Below are positions 4,277 through 13,262 of a stretch of 64,000 nucleotides of DNA, piece by piece. The notes below the pieces were generated by a model. That model worked only from the letters and a program-made list of their open reading frames with translations, was not told the DNA's origin and made no database searches. The stretch covers positions 62,001-126,000 of the forward strand of contig JAOACW010000001.1 in the NCBI GenBank assembly GCA_026417625.1, written 5' to 3'. This DNA comes from Syntrophales bacterium. Its GTDB lineage: Bacteria > Desulfobacterota > Syntrophia > Syntrophales > UBA8958. Position numbers and translations under genes: made by a program. Each line of letters opens with the position of its first letter. Within the stretch, counting starts at the first letter, position 1.

Positions 4277-5299
4277 CTAACACTTAAACTTCATAAACAC
4301 ATCCTCAAAGCTCAACATCTCGCTATAATCCAGAACAGTTGACATGGCATAATTTTCCACTGGTACTCCCCGTTCATAAGCTGCAGCCGGTGGATTCAAC
4401 CCTCCTATGAGAATGAGACCTAGCTTACTCACATCAACTGGTACTTGACACACAGGTTCACCGATTCTACCGATCGCCAGGACCCCTCTGATCCCCCAGC
4501 GGGCAAGACGAGAAATAATATTCTGCGTCAGATGGTAACATGGACCGGGGATCTCACGAAAATTGGCGAGAATCATTCCATCACCTCTGAGAGCAGCCCC
4601 GTTTACATCAGTCATCTTTCCTCTGATGAACACTTCCGACGGGTCAAGTGAAGACCCTGCATAGCTAATCAGTTCTACAAACCGCAATGGTCGTCCATCT
4701 CTAACCTGCAAGATGCCACCAAACTTGGAATCCATAGGTATACCATTCTTGAGGAGCACCCCGTTCACCACCAAACTGCACACTGTCGCTACTGCCACCT
4801 GGCCTTTCGGAATCTTAATCCCACCGATCATACAACCAGCTTCAGCAACCTTTACGCGATCACTAACAACAAATCCCGATGAAAAAACAGGCCTCATAAT
4901 TTCCAGAGCCATTCCAAAAAAATCTTCGGGGAAAAGGGATACGTTCACAGGCAAATACCCCTTTCCCGAATCAGGATCGAACGTGGTTTGGAAAGAGAGT
5001 ATCTCAATCCTCGAAATAACCATCCCAACCTTGTCCTGAACACGGGCCTTCCCCAACTCATCAATACCCTTTTCCGTTATAACCCGACCATCACGCTTCC
5101 CCATTAACCGCGTCAAACCCCGCTCATCCAAGAGACGTAAATGGTACCGCACAGTTCTCTCACTCAAACAAATCCCCTTCTCCTGAAGCTTTCGCGCAAT
5201 AAAGCGAGAACCCACGGGCTCCTTAGACTCATGGATTACCCTGAGAATCATGAGGGTTTTCCTCTCCACATCATCCGGATAATTCACATAAAGGGACAT
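4277..5299 (-). CDS. nrpR: NrpR-like nitrogen repressor (winged helix + DUF128)
   Basis: A 340-residue regulator with an N-terminal winged-helix domain (about 8-75, with the SERTVRYHLRLLDERGL recognition segment) and one NRD/DUF128 effector domain (about 85-340, containing SGFVVSDRV, PKGQVAVATVCS and GIRGVLAIGRIGEPVC). NrpR of methanogenic archaea represses nitrogen-assimilation genes and is released by 2-oxoglutarate. Many archaeal forms carry two NRD domains in one chain or two chains; this one has a single NRD. The neighbours, a glutamate-synthase-like gene 73 bp downstream and glnA further on, agree with a nitrogen role. A palindrome on its own promoter (5313-5330) suggests autoregulation. 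No strong Shine-Dalgarno precedes the chosen ATG, so the start is less certain than the identity. Confidence 0.88.
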   Translation of the reverse strand: MSLYVNYPDDVERKTLMILRVIHESKEPVGSRFIARKLQEKGICLSERTVRYHLRLLDERGLTRLMGKRDGRVITEKGIDELGKARVQDKVGMVISRIEILSFQTTFDPDSGKGYLPVNVSLFPEDFFGMALEIMRPVFSSGFVVSDRVKVAEAGCMIGGIKIPKGQVAVATVCSLVVNGVLLKNGIPMDSKFGGILQVRDGRPLRFVELISYAGSSLDPSEVFIRGKMTDVNGAALRGDGMILANFREIPGPCYHLTQNIISRLARWGIRGVLAIGRIGEPVCQVPVDVSKLGLILIGGLNPPAAAYERGVPVENYAMSTVLDYSEMLSFEDVFMKFKC

Positions 5300-5368: not shown

Positions 5369-5935
5369 TTACAAAAAAGTTAATTCATTTTTGGTATTTA
5401 TGTTCTTCAGAAGGAGACGTGGGTCACCAAAAGCCCTTATCTCATCCTCTGTGACAATCTTGTTCCTCAATCCTTTGTATAACACCGATACCTTAAGTTC
5501 ATCCTTCTTGATCTGATTATAGATTTTTTTCATACAACGCTTAGAATACAATGCATGGAGGGGGTGGAGACCATCTGCCGTTGACGGAACAACAACATCG
5601 AATCCCTGTCTGTTTTCGCTCATAAATCTTATGAAATCTGCACTTAAAAAAGGCATATCGCAGGCAACCACAAAAACGTATTCATAATTTGCAAAAAGAA
5701 GTGCAGTGTAAATTCCCATAAGTGGACCTTTATCGGGAAGAACGTCTGTAACTATGATGCAATCTAAATCCAAATAAAGAAGGGGATCGTTTGTAACGAG
5801 GATAACTTCAGGAAAGATCTCTTTCAAAACCCTAACGGTTCGATCAATGATCCTCTCCCCACAGACTTCGATAAAAGCCTTATTAAACCCCATGCGGGTG
5901 CTCAAACCACCAGCTAACACTACCCCTGAAATCAT
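5369..5935 (-). CDS. mobA: Molybdenum cofactor guanylyltransferase MobA
   Basis: Attaches GMP to molybdopterin to form the guanine dinucleotide cofactor of Mo/W enzymes. The nucleotidyltransferase fold is shown by LAGGLSTRMGFNKA (residues 7-20; GTP-binding loop with the Lys), DKGPLMGIYTAL and the metal-binding VVACDMPFLS. I start at ATG 5935, giving MISGVVLAGG as usual in the family, with AGGG upstream; a TTG at 5974 would add 13 residues without a better ribosome site. At about 188 residues it is of normal length. It is divergent from paaK. No molybdoenzyme lies in the window. Confidence 0.9.
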   Translation of the reverse strand: MISGVVLAGGLSTRMGFNKAFIEVCGERIIDRTVRVLKEIFPEVILVTNDPLLYLDLDCIIVTDVLPDKGPLMGIYTALLFANYEYVFVVACDMPFLSADFIRFMSENRQGFDVVVPSTADGLHPLHALYSKRCMKKIYNQIKKDELKVSVLYKGLRNKIVTEDEIRAFGDPRLLLKNINTKNELTFL

Positions 5936-6026
5936 TACAAATGCCCTAATACAAATTAAACTTGCCAAATTCAAGTGACCGCGTTAGAAATTTTTAATAA
6001 CTATCAAAGAATGTGGAGGCCAATAC

Positions 6027-7322
6027 ATGTACTGGGAAAAGGAAATAGAAACCCTCGAGCGAAGACTGCTGGAAACGCTGCAATTTGAGAAATTAATAAA
6101 TACCCTTCAGAGGGCATCAAAATCGCAATACTACAGCAAACTATTCCGCGAAATAGGTTTCTCGCCGGAGAATATAAAATCGCTTGACGATATAACGAAA
6201 ATTCCTCCCACAACAAAGGATGATCTCAGAGAGCACTGGCCATACGGTTTTATTGCGGTTCCAAAAGAGGAATTGGTGCGTATGCATTCATCGTCGGGAA
6301 CAACGGGTAGAGCTACTATCGTATTCCATACACAGAACGACCTCAATGTCTGGACGAATCTCTTAGCCCGATGCATGTTCATGACGGGTATGAGAAAATC
6401 AGACGTCTTCCAGAACATGATGAGTTATGGATTGTTCACAGGTGGTTTGGGTTTCCACTATGGAGCGGAAAAAATAGGGGCCCTCGTTATTCCCGCCGGG
6501 GCAGGGAACAGCAAAAGGCAAATCCAGCTTATGATGGATTTCGAAACAACAGTCATACACATTACACCGAGTTATGCCCTTCATCTCTCAAGTGTCTTTG
6601 AGGAAATGCATCTCAACCCTAGAGACACCAAACTCCGCATGGCATACATCGGAGCTGAACCCCACTCTGAAAAAATGAGACAGAAGATCGAAGAAATATA
6701 CGGTATTAAAGCGTTCAACTCGTACGGTCTCTCAGAAATGAACGGCCCGGGGGTAGCCTTCGAATGTCCGTATCAGAATGGTCTCCACATATGGGAGGAC
6801 AGTTTTCTTGTGGAAGTCCTAGATCCAAAAACCCTCGAACCAGTACCAGACTGTGAGGAAGGAGAACTCGTTCTTACCACACTTGATCGTGAAGGTATGC
6901 CTCTCTTACGCTACCGAACCCGGGATATAACTAAAATTTTACCTGGTGACTGCCCCTGTGGCAGAACACACAGAAGAATTGACCGCATTAAAGGCAGGAC
7001 AGACGACATGTTGATTGTGAAAGGTGTCAACATCTTCCCCCTGCAAATTGAGAGAAAACTAATGGCCATTCCTGGTGTTGGAAAGAACTTCCTCATCATT
7101 CTTGACCGTGAGGATTATACCGATATCATGACAGTTAAGGTCGAGGTTGAACAGCAGTACTTTGACGGTGACATCAAACACCTCGAACAACTAAGGCGAA
7201 GAATTATCGATGAATTACGCAGCGAGATTCTCATCACCCCTAGGGTAGATCTTGTGGAGCCCAATACGCTGCCACAAACAGAGGGTAAGGCCAAACGGGT
7301 AATTGACAATAGAAAAGACTGA
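6027..7322 (+). CDS. paaK: Phenylacetate-CoA ligase
   Basis: AMP-forming ligase converting an aryl acid such as phenylacetate, with ATP and CoA, to the CoA thioester. SSSGTTGR (88-95) is the ATP-binding loop; YGLSEMNGPGVAFEC holds the adenylate-binding region, and RYRTRD with RTDDMLIVKGVNIFP is the hinge and C-terminal domain. At 431 residues it is full length for the family. GGAGG stands 8 bases before the ATG. It leads a plus-strand operon with an ACT-domain protein 23 bp downstream, a pairing common in anaerobes, where these ligases often activate indole- or phenylacetate made from aromatic amino acids. The exact substrate is not readable. Confidence 0.93.
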   Translation: MYWEKEIETLERRLLETLQFEKLINTLQRASKSQYYSKLFREIGFSPENIKSLDDITKIPPTTKDDLREHWPYGFIAVPKEELVRMHSSSGTTGRATIVFHTQNDLNVWTNLLARCMFMTGMRKSDVFQNMMSYGLFTGGLGFHYGAEKIGALVIPAGAGNSKRQIQLMMDFETTVIHITPSYALHLSSVFEEMHLNPRDTKLRMAYIGAEPHSEKMRQKIEEIYGIKAFNSYGLSEMNGPGVAFECPYQNGLHIWEDSFLVEVLDPKTLEPVPDCEEGELVLTTLDREGMPLLRYRTRDITKILPGDCPCGRTHRRIDRIKGRTDDMLIVKGVNIFPLQIERKLMAIPGVGKNFLIILDREDYTDIMTVKVEVEQQYFDGDIKHLEQLRRRIIDELRSEILITPRVDLVEPNTLPQTEGKAKRVIDNRKD

Positions 7323-7345: not shown

Positions 7346-7798
7346 ATGATTGCCAGCCAACTTTCCGTCTTTGCAGAAAACAGGCCTGGAAAACTTGCCG
7401 CCGTCACATCGATCTTAGCAAAGGAGAAAATAAACATCCGGGCAACCACGATATCCACGTCAGACACATTCGGTGTCATCAACCTTATTGTAGACGACCC
7501 GGAGAGAGCCAAAGAGGCACTCACGAAAGCAGGCATGATGGTTCGTCTGCGACCTGTTCTCGCTGTACTTATTGAAGATCGACCAGGGGGGCTGGACAAA
7601 CTAACGCAACTTCTGGCAAAAGAAAACATAAACATCAATAACGCGTACGGATTCGTCCTGGAAAACAGGGTAAGTGCCGTATTCGTCGTGGACGTGGATC
7701 AACTGGAGAAAGCGGAAAAGCTCGTAGAAAAGCATGGCTTTAAAACCCTAGATAGCGAAGAACTAGCAGCAGTGGAACCCTTCCACTACAAATACTGA
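7346..7798 (+). CDS. Tandem ACT-domain protein
   Basis: A 150-residue protein made of two ACT domains, about 3-70 (QLSVFAENRPGKLAAVTSIL, then INIRATTIS) and 73-145 (PVLAVLIEDRPGGLDKLTQLL, then ININNAYGF). ACT domains bind small ligands, usually amino acids. No catalytic domain is fused to it, so it probably acts as an amino-acid sensor or regulatory subunit. Its place 23 bp after paaK, with the good ribosome site AAAGGGGG, suggests it senses aromatic amino acids or their breakdown products and acts on the ligase or its pathway; that link is inference from context. Confidence 0.85.
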   Translation: MIASQLSVFAENRPGKLAAVTSILAKEKINIRATTISTSDTFGVINLIVDDPERAKEALTKAGMMVRLRPVLAVLIEDRPGGLDKLTQLLAKENININNAYGFVLENRVSAVFVVDVDQLEKAEKLVEKHGFKTLDSEELAAVEPFHYKY

Positions 7799-7815: not shown

Positions 7816-8232
7816 ATGGACACGTCCTCTGAGAATAATCACAATGATAATTATGTTCTGCAACTTCAAAAGGAAATCGAAACGGAACTAAAAGAGGGGA
7901 GACTCCCCTGCGTCAGTGCAGAAAAACTATCAAGAAGGAAAAACTTGCGCCTTCAGGAGATCGGCTACGTATGTAACACTCTAGGCATCCGTATCGGATG
8001 GTGCCAGCTCGGGCTCTTTGGTCATGGATCTAAAGGTAAAATCCTGATAAAAACCATCCAGCCATCTCCAGAAATGGAAAAAATGATAAGACGTTATCTG
8101 GCGAACGGCAGCATACCGTGCTGTTCTGTATGGAAGATTGCCGCAAAACTTAGGTTGCCGCGGCTCTACGTGGCAGCCATGTGTGAAGCCTTAAATGTAA
8201 AAATCAGCCCCTGTCAGCTCGGTGCTTTTTAA
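7816..8232 (+). CDS. Unknown protein: duplicated Cys-containing helix-turn-helix-like repeat
   Basis: I do not recognise this 138-residue protein. It is a clear internal duplication: residues 16-68 and 87-138 align without large gaps, sharing G-(L/I)-PC-x-S-x2-K-(L/I), then C-x2-L-x3-I-x2-CQLG-x-F. Repeat cysteines are C32, C53, C63 and C102 (next to C103), C123, C133, so each half could offer three sulfur ligands. The helical pattern of each half looks like a small winged or plain helix-turn-helix. No signal peptide or membrane segment is present. It begins 17 bp after the ACT gene and should be cotranscribed with paaK and ACT; AAGGCA precedes the ATG. Metal binding and a regulatory role are guesses. 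Confidence 0.75.
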   Translation: MDTSSENNHNDNYVLQLQKEIETELKEGRLPCVSAEKLSRRKNLRLQEIGYVCNTLGIRIGWCQLGLFGHGSKGKILIKTIQPSPEMEKMIRRYLANGSIPCCSVWKIAAKLRLPRLYVAAMCEALNVKISPCQLGAF

Positions 8233-10880: not shown

Positions 10881-13262
10881 CTATGGTGACAACATCTTGA
10901 ACTGCTTGTGCACAAATAGAAAATCACCCCCCTCATGACCAACATAAGGCAGATCAGAATATTCAGGAGTCTGGGGGGCATTGGTCGCTACCAGTTTTCG
11001 CAGCTCTTCGAAAAGACGAGTTCCCTCCATAATGCCTCTATTCTTGTTGAGTACATCAATGAAAAGTCTGGCAAAAACAGAATGACCCTCTCCGCCCTCA
11101 TCCAGCACGGGTTCCACACCACCTGAGGTAAGAACAACCCGCGTTCTCTTCTCTGCCAGACGGCGGAGATAATCAGAACCCTTCACTGTCACGGTTACTC
11201 CCCTTGTGAGGGTACCACTGTAACAGCTATCGGCAACAACGATTACGTGCTTGGCCGCCATTGCTTTAAGGGCATCGGAAATGTCATTCGTAGATATCCA
11301 GTTGGCCACACTATCGGCATCGGCATCGGCAGGCAACCAGTATCCCCTACCCGTATCCCGATCCAGGTAACCATGTCCGGCATAGTAGATCAGAAGATTG
11401 TCCCTCTGGGTAAGACTCTTCCGCAGTTTGCTGAAGGCATCCATAATCTGCTTTCGAGTAGCATTGATTAGCAGAACTACCCCGTACCCATACTCTTTGT
11501 CTAACAGAGCACCTACAGCTTCCGCATCACGGCGAGCTGTTCGTAGTTTTCTTAAGTGTTTGTATTCGTCGATTCCAATTACGAGTGCATAATAATTACC
11601 AAAATCAATATTCGCACCCTCCTTAATGCGTAACAGTTCATCATGTCTCTGTTTGGCTATTTCTGCATACCGCCCTTTAGGGTATTTCTGTAGATACTGG
11701 ACAAAATCCTCCAACTTTCTAGAATCTTTCACTGTTTCCCAGAACTCAATCTCATCCCTCTCCGCTTTTAAAGCCTCCAGCTGTTTCTCCAGCATTTTCG
11801 CCAGATCTGTATATCTTCCCTTTGGATACCGCCTCAGGTACTCCCGGAAATCCTCCGGCCGCGAGCTTTCTCGTATGCTGTTCCAGAAAACCATCTCCTC
11901 GGTATCAGTTTTCACTATCAGGAGTACATCAATGCGGGACTTTGCGAGATCTGCAAATAATCCATCGGGGTACATTTGAAGATAATTCTTGTAATCTTCT
12001 ATGTTCCTACTATTCTCAATCTTCTTCCACAAACGCAATTCCAAATTGTCGTGTCTATCCCTAACTGCGAGAAGATTATCGATCCGTCTCTTTGCCTGAT
12101 CAGCGTATATACCCAGTGGATACCTGTGCAGATATTTACGCACCTCTTCGGGATCCTTACTATCCCTAACTTTTTCCCATAATGCCTCTTCCACCTCCAG
12201 TTCACCCAAAACCGAGGTGGCCGCACGTAGGCGCTTGGCCGAAGCTACAGCCATATCCACAAAGAGACCTTTGGGAAATCTTTCTATATAGGAGTCAAAA
12301 TCAGCAGCGTTTTTACTATCCTTGATCCTGCCCCAATACGCCACATCCTGTTCTATGATCTCCCTTTCCTCTAAGGCCTGGATCCTGGCCTTAGCAGCCC
12401 CCTGGAACATTCCCTTTGGATAAAGTTCCAGGTACCTTTTATAACTCGATATACTGTTCTCCCTTGACACATTTTCCCATAGGCGCTTTTCTTCCTCTGT
12501 TGTCTCCTCTTTCTTCTCTACCACTCCTTCTGAACCAGGCACGGCCAAAACAAATACATCCGCCGGTAAACTCTCCAAAGGAGGCAAAACAGCGAGACCT
12601 CCATCCTTTGAAACAAGGGCATTCTTCTTTTTAAACTCCATACGAAAGAGGTTCGAACCTCCACCGATGTTTAGGAGACCTGCACCGGCTACACTGTAAC
12701 TACCAGAGATTACGCTTTTATCAAAATCAAGGCTGTTAATCGTGAATTTCATGTAGTACGCCCCTGGAAAGAACAACCAAGAACAAACGGGACTACTTTC
12801 CATAATCACGTTTGTAGGTGAGATAACAGAAACAGTTACAGGGGCACTGGCACAAAGTAGTGGCCCAAGCCATCTACCTTTTCCGTCCATCATGAACTTT
12901 ATCTGAGCTGTCTTTTTATCAAAGGTTGCCTGAAAGATGTATGGTTCACTGTACGAAGCAATACCAGGGAAAGGTCCCCCTTGAACGTACCATCGAATAC
13001 CCTTTTTCTCACATGTTTCACCATCATCCCCCAGGGTACAGATATCCGCCTGGGTGTTCTCATTGGCCTTAATCATGGCAAGGAGTCCCCCCATTATCCT
13101 ATCTCTGGTATACTTCTCAGCGGATTCACACTTGCCGTTCAAACATACCAAAACCTCTTTTGCCTGCTTAACGTCAGCGTCCGATGCGGCGTAACAGCTC
13201 GTGCAGAAAGCCAAAACTAAAAAAATTAAGCAGGGACTCACCCGCACCTTTTTAATCCACAT
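10881..13262 (-). CDS. Secreted caspase-like (C14) protein with six tandem repeats
   Basis: A 793-residue exported protein. A signal peptide covers about 1-26 (hydrophobic LIFLVLAFC; the cysteine might also be a lipobox). An unrecognised beta-rich domain follows to about 235. Next are six repeats of about 48 residues (about 258-553) with the pattern W-x2-(I/V)-x2-S-x6-Y-(L/I)-x2-(Y/F)P-x-G-x2-x-x-A-x3. The C-terminal metacaspase domain runs from 556, with catalytic His630 (YYAGHG) and Cys680 (DSCYSG). The dyad is intact, so it should be a protease, probably acting outside the inner membrane. The repeats look like helical hairpins (TPR-like) for protein binding. Partner and trigger are unknown. 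No clear terminator separates it from the radical SAM gene 96 bp upstream. Confidence 0.88.
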   Translation of the reverse strand: MWIKKVRVSPCLIFLVLAFCTSCYAASDADVKQAKEVLVCLNGKCESAEKYTRDRIMGGLLAMIKANENTQADICTLGDDGETCEKKGIRWYVQGGPFPGIASYSEPYIFQATFDKKTAQIKFMMDGKGRWLGPLLCASAPVTVSVISPTNVIMESSPVCSWLFFPGAYYMKFTINSLDFDKSVISGSYSVAGAGLLNIGGGSNLFRMEFKKKNALVSKDGGLAVLPPLESLPADVFVLAVPGSEGVVEKKEETTEEEKRLWENVSRENSISSYKRYLELYPKGMFQGAAKARIQALEEREIIEQDVAYWGRIKDSKNAADFDSYIERFPKGLFVDMAVASAKRLRAATSVLGELEVEEALWEKVRDSKDPEEVRKYLHRYPLGIYADQAKRRIDNLLAVRDRHDNLELRLWKKIENSRNIEDYKNYLQMYPDGLFADLAKSRIDVLLIVKTDTEEMVFWNSIRESSRPEDFREYLRRYPKGRYTDLAKMLEKQLEALKAERDEIEFWETVKDSRKLEDFVQYLQKYPKGRYAEIAKQRHDELLRIKEGANIDFGNYYALVIGIDEYKHLRKLRTARRDAEAVGALLDKEYGYGVVLLINATRKQIMDAFSKLRKSLTQRDNLLIYYAGHGYLDRDTGRGYWLPADADADSVANWISTNDISDALKAMAAKHVIVVADSCYSGTLTRGVTVTVKGSDYLRRLAEKRTRVVLTSGGVEPVLDEGGEGHSVFARLFIDVLNKNRGIMEGTRLFEELRKLVATNAPQTPEYSDLPYVGHEGGDFLFVHKQFKMLSP

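Follow-up and report, generated by a model that had tools for sequence, protein, structure and literature searches.

The tandem cysteine-domain gene and its surroundings

The window analysed here, a 64,000-nucleotide stretch of contig JAOACW010000001.1 from a Syntrophales bacterium, carries a small gene whose product consists of two copies of a cysteine-containing domain (Table 1). Upstream and on the same strand lie the genes for a tandem-ACT protein, whose stop codon is separated by 17 bases from the cysteine-domain open reading frame (ORF), and for a paaK-like CoA ligase. Judged from this spacing, the shared strand and the conserved gene order, the three genes are probably cotranscribed, as the original prediction had proposed. 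The paaK-ACT-gene order is kept in the window's class and lost outside it; on the downstream side, a phosphorylase-family gene, thioredoxin and BamD-like genes are frequent in loci of the class. The promoter-like element TTGCCA-17-TAGAAA upstream of paaK was not listed by a separate scan, a comparison of 13 class loci yielded no conserved palindrome or operator-like repeat upstream of paaK, and Rfam gave no match near the cysteine-domain gene. Elsewhere in the window, positions 4277-5299 (minus strand) encode an NrpR-type regulator (PF01995, E 7.2e-80), a kind of protein known mainly from archaeal nitrogen control, and positions 10881-13262 (minus strand) hold a 793-aa ORF with repeats and a domain that resembles a caspase-type protease by eye.

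Table 1. Coordinates of the genes, domain copies and cysteine codons discussed in the text
Feature	Position in window	Strand	Evidence
MobA-like nucleotidyltransferase, divergent neighbour of the operon	5369..5935	-	PF12804, E 1.9e-37; MobA near the tandem gene in 10/18 class loci
Promoter-like element TTGCCA-17-TAGAAA upstream of paaK	5962..5990	+	Read by eye; CTTGATAA at the matching place in 9/13 class loci
paaK-like CoA ligase, first gene of the probable operon	6027..7322	+	TIGR02155, E 2.7e-144, below its cut-off; same strand in the short flank of 34/53 class loci
Tandem-ACT protein gene, probable operon partner in the window's class	7346..7798	+	PF19571, E 2.9e-22; directly upstream, same strand, in 42/53 class loci
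Tandem cysteine-domain protein gene	7816..8232	+	ATG start, 138 aa; open frame and translation; homologues in 137/155 class genomes
First domain copy, residues 15-69, ends CQLGLFG	7858..8022	+	Alignment and profile comparison with second half and single-domain relatives
Codon of C32, invariant, predicted start of helix 2, first copy	7909..7911	+	Constant in 102/102 first halves
Codon of C63, invariant, cysteine of CQLG, first copy	8002..8004	+	Constant in 102/102 first halves
Second domain copy, residues 83-138, ends at the C-terminus with CQLGAF	8062..8229	+	Alignment and profile comparison; motif F is the last residue in 89/102 tandem proteins
Codon of C102, invariant, predicted start of helix 2, second copy	8119..8121	+	Constant in 102/102 second halves
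Codon of C123, helix-3 cysteine, second copy	8182..8184	+	Cysteine in 93/102 second halves; no first-half feature
Codon of C133, invariant, cysteine of CQLG, second copy	8212..8214	+	Constant in 102/102 second halves

The proposal that the protein is built from two homologous halves was confirmed. Local alignment of the halves scored 88, against a mean of 21 and a maximum of 44 for shuffled sequences, and with the CQLGxF motif masked the score was still 63 against a shuffle maximum of 43 (0 of 5,000 shuffles reached the real score in either case). Half 1 matched half 2 at 99.3% in profile comparison, and the two halves and the single domain of other relatives were mutually linked at 99.3-99.6%. 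The 138-aa protein is thus a tandem duplicate of a stand-alone domain of ~57 residues, which occurs as a single copy in many relatives and in tandem in others; the original prediction had overlooked this stand-alone form. The single-domain relatives recovered by a phylum-wide search are mostly about 58-80 residues long.

Predicted fold and conserved cysteines

AlphaFold2 single-sequence models contain three helices per copy, with mean pLDDT values of 58.7 for the whole protein and 77.2 for the second copy. At low to medium confidence, the domain is accordingly predicted to consist of three helices arranged like a helix-turn-helix (HTH), with the CQLGxF tail conserved at its C-terminal end; the HTH-like fold suggested earlier is backed to that extent. 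Foldseek found no match to the predicted models at E 0.001; a structure comparison (VIA) returned weak matches mostly to DNA-binding HTH domains, the best with a Z score of 4.3 to GcrA, none of them significant.

That the protein belongs to no named family, as the original prediction stated, holds for the curated libraries and solved structures searched. Pfam returned 0 families for the window protein at E 1, NCBIfam returned none, profile searches of the PDB gave no significant match to a solved structure, and the two PHROGs matches (E 0.13 and 0.21) were at chance level. When 37 homologues were compared with Pfam, no HTH family rose above its cut-off; the isolated HTH matches had best E values of 0.014 to 0.16. 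Matches of single members to RM3_Med14, DUF7769 and Xlink were rejected as isolated and below cut-off. DUF7645 (PF24655) has a similar length and is matched weakly, at E up to 1, by 13 of the 37 tandem homologues. Against membership, the best of these matches reached 25.2 bits, the cut-off being 27 (ten proteins scanned in detail), the matches end before the CQLGxF tail, and the window protein itself has none. Within the one literature library searched, no paper was found on CQLGxF-type tails of this family or on DUF7645.

The earlier reading of each half as PC-x-S ... C-x2-L ... CQLG-x-F describes the window protein correctly, but across the family only the PC cysteine and the CQLGxF tail are constant. 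Both of these cysteines are present in every copy of 60 single-domain and 102 tandem proteins and, with the second phylum described below included, in 289 of 289 distinct copies (copies with at least 12 gaps were left out), a count to be read with the caveat that the profile itself weights the cysteines, so that copies without them could be under-detected. The emphasis originally placed on the repeated cysteines was therefore well founded, and the search produced no homologue lacking them. They are spaced 31 residues apart in each of the 263 copies measured, the pattern used for this count having missed one copy with CLLG. In an alignment of 37 tandem proteins drawn from 53 class loci (L006, L013 and L049 are absent from it; all fetched loci were scanned for cysteine counts), C32, C63, C102, C123 and C133 are constant; C53 and C103 are not. 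C53, which had been taken for the middle cysteine of half 1, is consequently not a family feature, and, like the serine of PC-x-S and the extra C103, it is peculiar to the window copy or poorly conserved. A third cysteine (CQLGC) occurs in 51/60 single copies and in 26/26 aligned copies from the second phylum, compared with 1/102 first halves and 2/102 second halves of tandem proteins. The phenylalanine of the motif is the last or next-to-last residue in 58/60 single and 100/102 tandem proteins.

In-frame TGA codons were noted in two copies. A single-domain copy in a Tup/MobA/MobB/MoaA locus (L264:4932, minus strand) has one exactly at the first constant cysteine, which makes it a candidate for selenocysteine; a sequencing error or a broken gene fits equally well, and 18% of shuffled sequences fold as stably as the hairpin downstream of this TGA. 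The second, in a tandem copy (L266, genome G057), falls on a residue other than cysteine, which shows that in-frame stops can occur independently of the cysteines.

The predicted fold invites a reading as a small metal- or thiol-sensing transcription regulator, whose cysteine pair would sense tungsten, molybdenum, iron or redox state and whose HTH core would bind operators of tungstate-transport or metalloenzyme genes; the fused forms described below would then be enzyme-regulator proteins. We consider this possible but somewhat unlikely. The three-helix prediction and the preponderance of DNA-binding domains among the weak structural matches speak for it, and single winged-helix thiol regulators such as OxsR (PMC9426492) provide a precedent. 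Like these, and like FeoC-type winged helices with Fe-S ligands, the proteins are small, HTH-like and equipped with cysteines of apparent functional importance. Unlike in those families, the two cysteines of the domain flank helices 2 and 3 at a distance of 31 residues and form no cluster within a wing, and the Pfam, NCBIfam and homologue scans found no sequence relationship to either. Also against regulation are the lack of any HTH family above cut-off among the 37 members and of any Foldseek match, the absence of a conserved palindrome upstream of paaK, and the character of helix 3, which is on average slightly acidic (mean charge -0.5, with one near-constant D/E/N residue), unusual for DNA reading. 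Finally, the tail and cysteines are constant while genomic context varies widely. Constancy of these elements against a variable remainder argues for a ligand or metal site over a variable operator-reading surface, and hence favours cofactor handling over transcription control, without certainty.

Distribution and gene neighbourhoods within the phylum

Relatives of the protein were found in 54/60 near genomes and in 137/155 genomes of the window's class. The phylum-wide search detected the domain in 141 of the 297 genomes sampled, about half, and a search with the single-domain profile gave the same count of 141. A second phylum, that of locus L001 (Propionibacteriaceae bacterium), was searched as a control and proved to contain the domain in 27/149 genomes, all 27 loci of which were fetched. 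L001 itself and L002 had come from a single-sequence contig scan and are chance matches, as the profile finds nothing in their genomes. Viral contigs, phages and plasmids were also scanned and held no relative of the domain.

A role at paaK, near which the original prediction had proposed a DNA-binding test, was not supported. Local regulation of paaK or of arylacetate metabolism would suit the gene order kept inside the class, where the ACT gene so often lies directly upstream (42/53 loci). Among 21 tandem loci outside the class (L062, L064-L074, L076-L083 and L085), however, an ACT match occurs in L065 only and paaK in the short flank of none, and neither paaK nor ACT is a labelled neighbour in any of the 60 single-domain loci. 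Because the order is not kept outside the class, and with no operator-like repeat upstream of paaK, control of arylacetate metabolism is very improbable.

The commonest partners of the single-domain form are a radical SAM gene, downstream in 18/60 loci, and a CoA-enzyme activase (17/60), both spread over several families; Mrp-like genes occur in 6/60. In L181 (1112-6300) and 17 other single-domain loci, the single-domain gene, the radical SAM gene and a large CoA-enzyme activase (BcrAD/DUF2229) form a module, in which the radical SAM start overlaps or nearly overlaps the single-domain gene; L181 additionally has a metallo-beta-lactamase-like gene within the module. In L187, the single-domain gene is accompanied by genes for an Mrp-like ATPase, MinD-like ATPases with ferredoxin motifs, NifX-like proteins and a nitroreductase-like protein (by eye), a cluster that by eye resembles orange-protein/MrpORP clusters. 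A product with a conserved C-terminal motif, encoded ahead of a radical SAM gene, could also be a peptide precursor; this is unlikely because 30/141 genomes with the domain have no such radical SAM gene.

These associations raise the alternative that the domain is an accessory protein or regulator of another oxygen-sensitive metalloenzyme system, involving radical SAM proteins with CoA-enzyme activases or Mrp-type Fe-S carriers, and that the association with molybdenum/tungsten (Mo/W) genes seen in the second phylum reflects one of several uses. Besides the neighbour counts, co-occurrence is in its favour, the radical SAM gene being present in 111/141 genomes with the domain versus 82/156 without; co-occurrence of DUF2229 activases, found in 228/297 genomes of the phylum, was left untabulated as too common to discriminate. 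On the other side, the radical SAM query found no match in the genome to which the window belongs, and among the neighbours listed for the 42 tandem loci outside the class, no gene was labelled as radical SAM or activase (0/42). We judge this alternative improbable.

The Mo/W signal in the neighbourhoods of the window's own phylum is weak. Genes for FdhE, MoeA, FdhD, AOR or TupABC lie beside the domain in 7/60 single-domain loci, a count that includes L100, where the apparent MoaA is the adjacent radical SAM gene misread, and in 1/42 tandem loci outside the class. Two of the single-domain loci, L087 and L185, carry FdhE/FdhD and MoeA genes. Within the class, the MobA gene near the tandem loci could reflect plain conserved gene order.

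Operons and fusions in the second phylum and a proposed tungsten/molybdenum role

The strongest signal for a Mo/W role, a link absent from the original prediction, comes from the operons and fusions of the second phylum. There, tblastn identified Mo/W genes in 26 of 27 loci, encoding Tup/Wtp transporters, MoeA, MobA, MobB, MoaA, MoaC, FdhD or AOR; since many of the tblastn references came from the same loci, this figure measures conserved company more than independent annotation. Solved structures served to check the labels TupA, FdhD and MobB, and Pfam those of MobA, MoeA and AOR; the other names were assigned by eye. The 27th locus, L239, is situated at the end of a contig, and the next ORF there looks TupA-like by eye. 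In several loci TupABC or WtpABC immediately follows the domain gene, an arrangement that counts in favour of the regulator reading.

In 11/27 loci of this phylum the domain forms the C-terminal end of a larger ORF. A P-loop domain is the fusion partner in six loci and a degenerate form of it alone in four, where the fusion adjoins MobA; in L245 the domain, MobA (PF12804, E 7.6e-36) and the degenerate P-loop domain share a single 399-aa ORF. The P-loop partner aligns weakly with MobB (23%, E 9e-4) and has no convincing PDB match, so its identity as a true MobB is not established.

The distribution of AOR, a family of tungsten enzymes, points in the same direction as the operons. In the window's phylum, AOR is present in 134/141 genomes with the domain versus 99/156 without, and in the second phylum, where 80 of the 149 genomes were examined, in 18/27 versus 9/53; both comparisons ignore relatedness. 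AOR is common also in genomes that do not carry the domain, and 7/141 carriers in the window's phylum and 9/27 in the second do not have it. The window's own genome has an AOR gene.

We tentatively propose, with a probability of roughly 0.45, that the domain family serves a tungsten/molybdenum cofactor system, in which the cysteine pair would most likely hold a metal, a metal-pterin intermediate or sulfur beside MobA/MobB-type steps. Each copy would contribute its invariant pair, with one cysteine where helix 2 begins and the other in the tail, as the holding site, and would act near those steps either as a separate small protein (in trans) or as the C-terminal domain of a fusion (in cis). Action would take place during cofactor assembly and not on DNA. 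In the window's class the tandem form, encoded together with paaK and the ACT protein, would keep the Mo/W role; for the window's copy this extension draws on homology, the AOR gene of its own genome and the divergent MobA-like gene.

MobA and MobB act in molybdopterin guanine dinucleotide synthesis, and PMC2700814 describes MobA-MobB fusions such as GSU3147. The domain resembles that system in being fused to MobA in L245 and to the P-loop domain in six loci, and in adjoining mobA, mobB and moeA in the second phylum; it differs in that the window protein has no P-loop and no Pfam match to an NTP-transferase. A tungsten-specific MoeA1-MobB branch is reported for Methylorubrum, with its mechanism described as open (PMC13197769).

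The domain also keeps company in the second phylum similar to that of established regulators. ModE, TaoR/TupR and TunR are HTH-type regulators of molybdate or tungstate genes and are tied to tungstate transport and tungstoenzyme genes. ModE has a molybdate-binding MOP domain after its HTH, and TaoR/TupR combines an excisionase-like HTH with a PBP-like domain. The window protein, unlike ModE, has no MOP domain, its 138 residues being filled by two copies of one domain; unlike TaoR/TupR, it has neither an excisionase-type HTH nor a PBP-like domain, and none of the three domains recurs in the 37 homologues. Within the proposed Mo/W reading, the HTH-like cysteine-dyad domain would probably handle a metal or the cofactor, and might do so as a sensor.

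A more specific version of the cofactor reading, which we regard as speculative and unlikely as it stands, would make the domain a dedicated W/Mo handling module. Its cysteine pair (possibly Cys/Sec in one genome) would carry a metal or metal-pterin between MoeA, MobA/MobB and the target enzyme and would help to set selectivity for tungsten or molybdenum in anaerobes.

The libraries searched hold no curated family for this domain, which is present in most genomes of one class and in part of two phyla. The association with tungstate uptake, MobA and AOR gives an entry point to the question of how anaerobes discriminate between tungsten and molybdenum in making the same pterin cofactor, and the fusions point to concrete candidate partners. 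In Desulfovibrio, genes for the tungsten cofactor are reported to be scorable by chlorate fitness (PMC10102598), a usable assay in a host that bears the domain.
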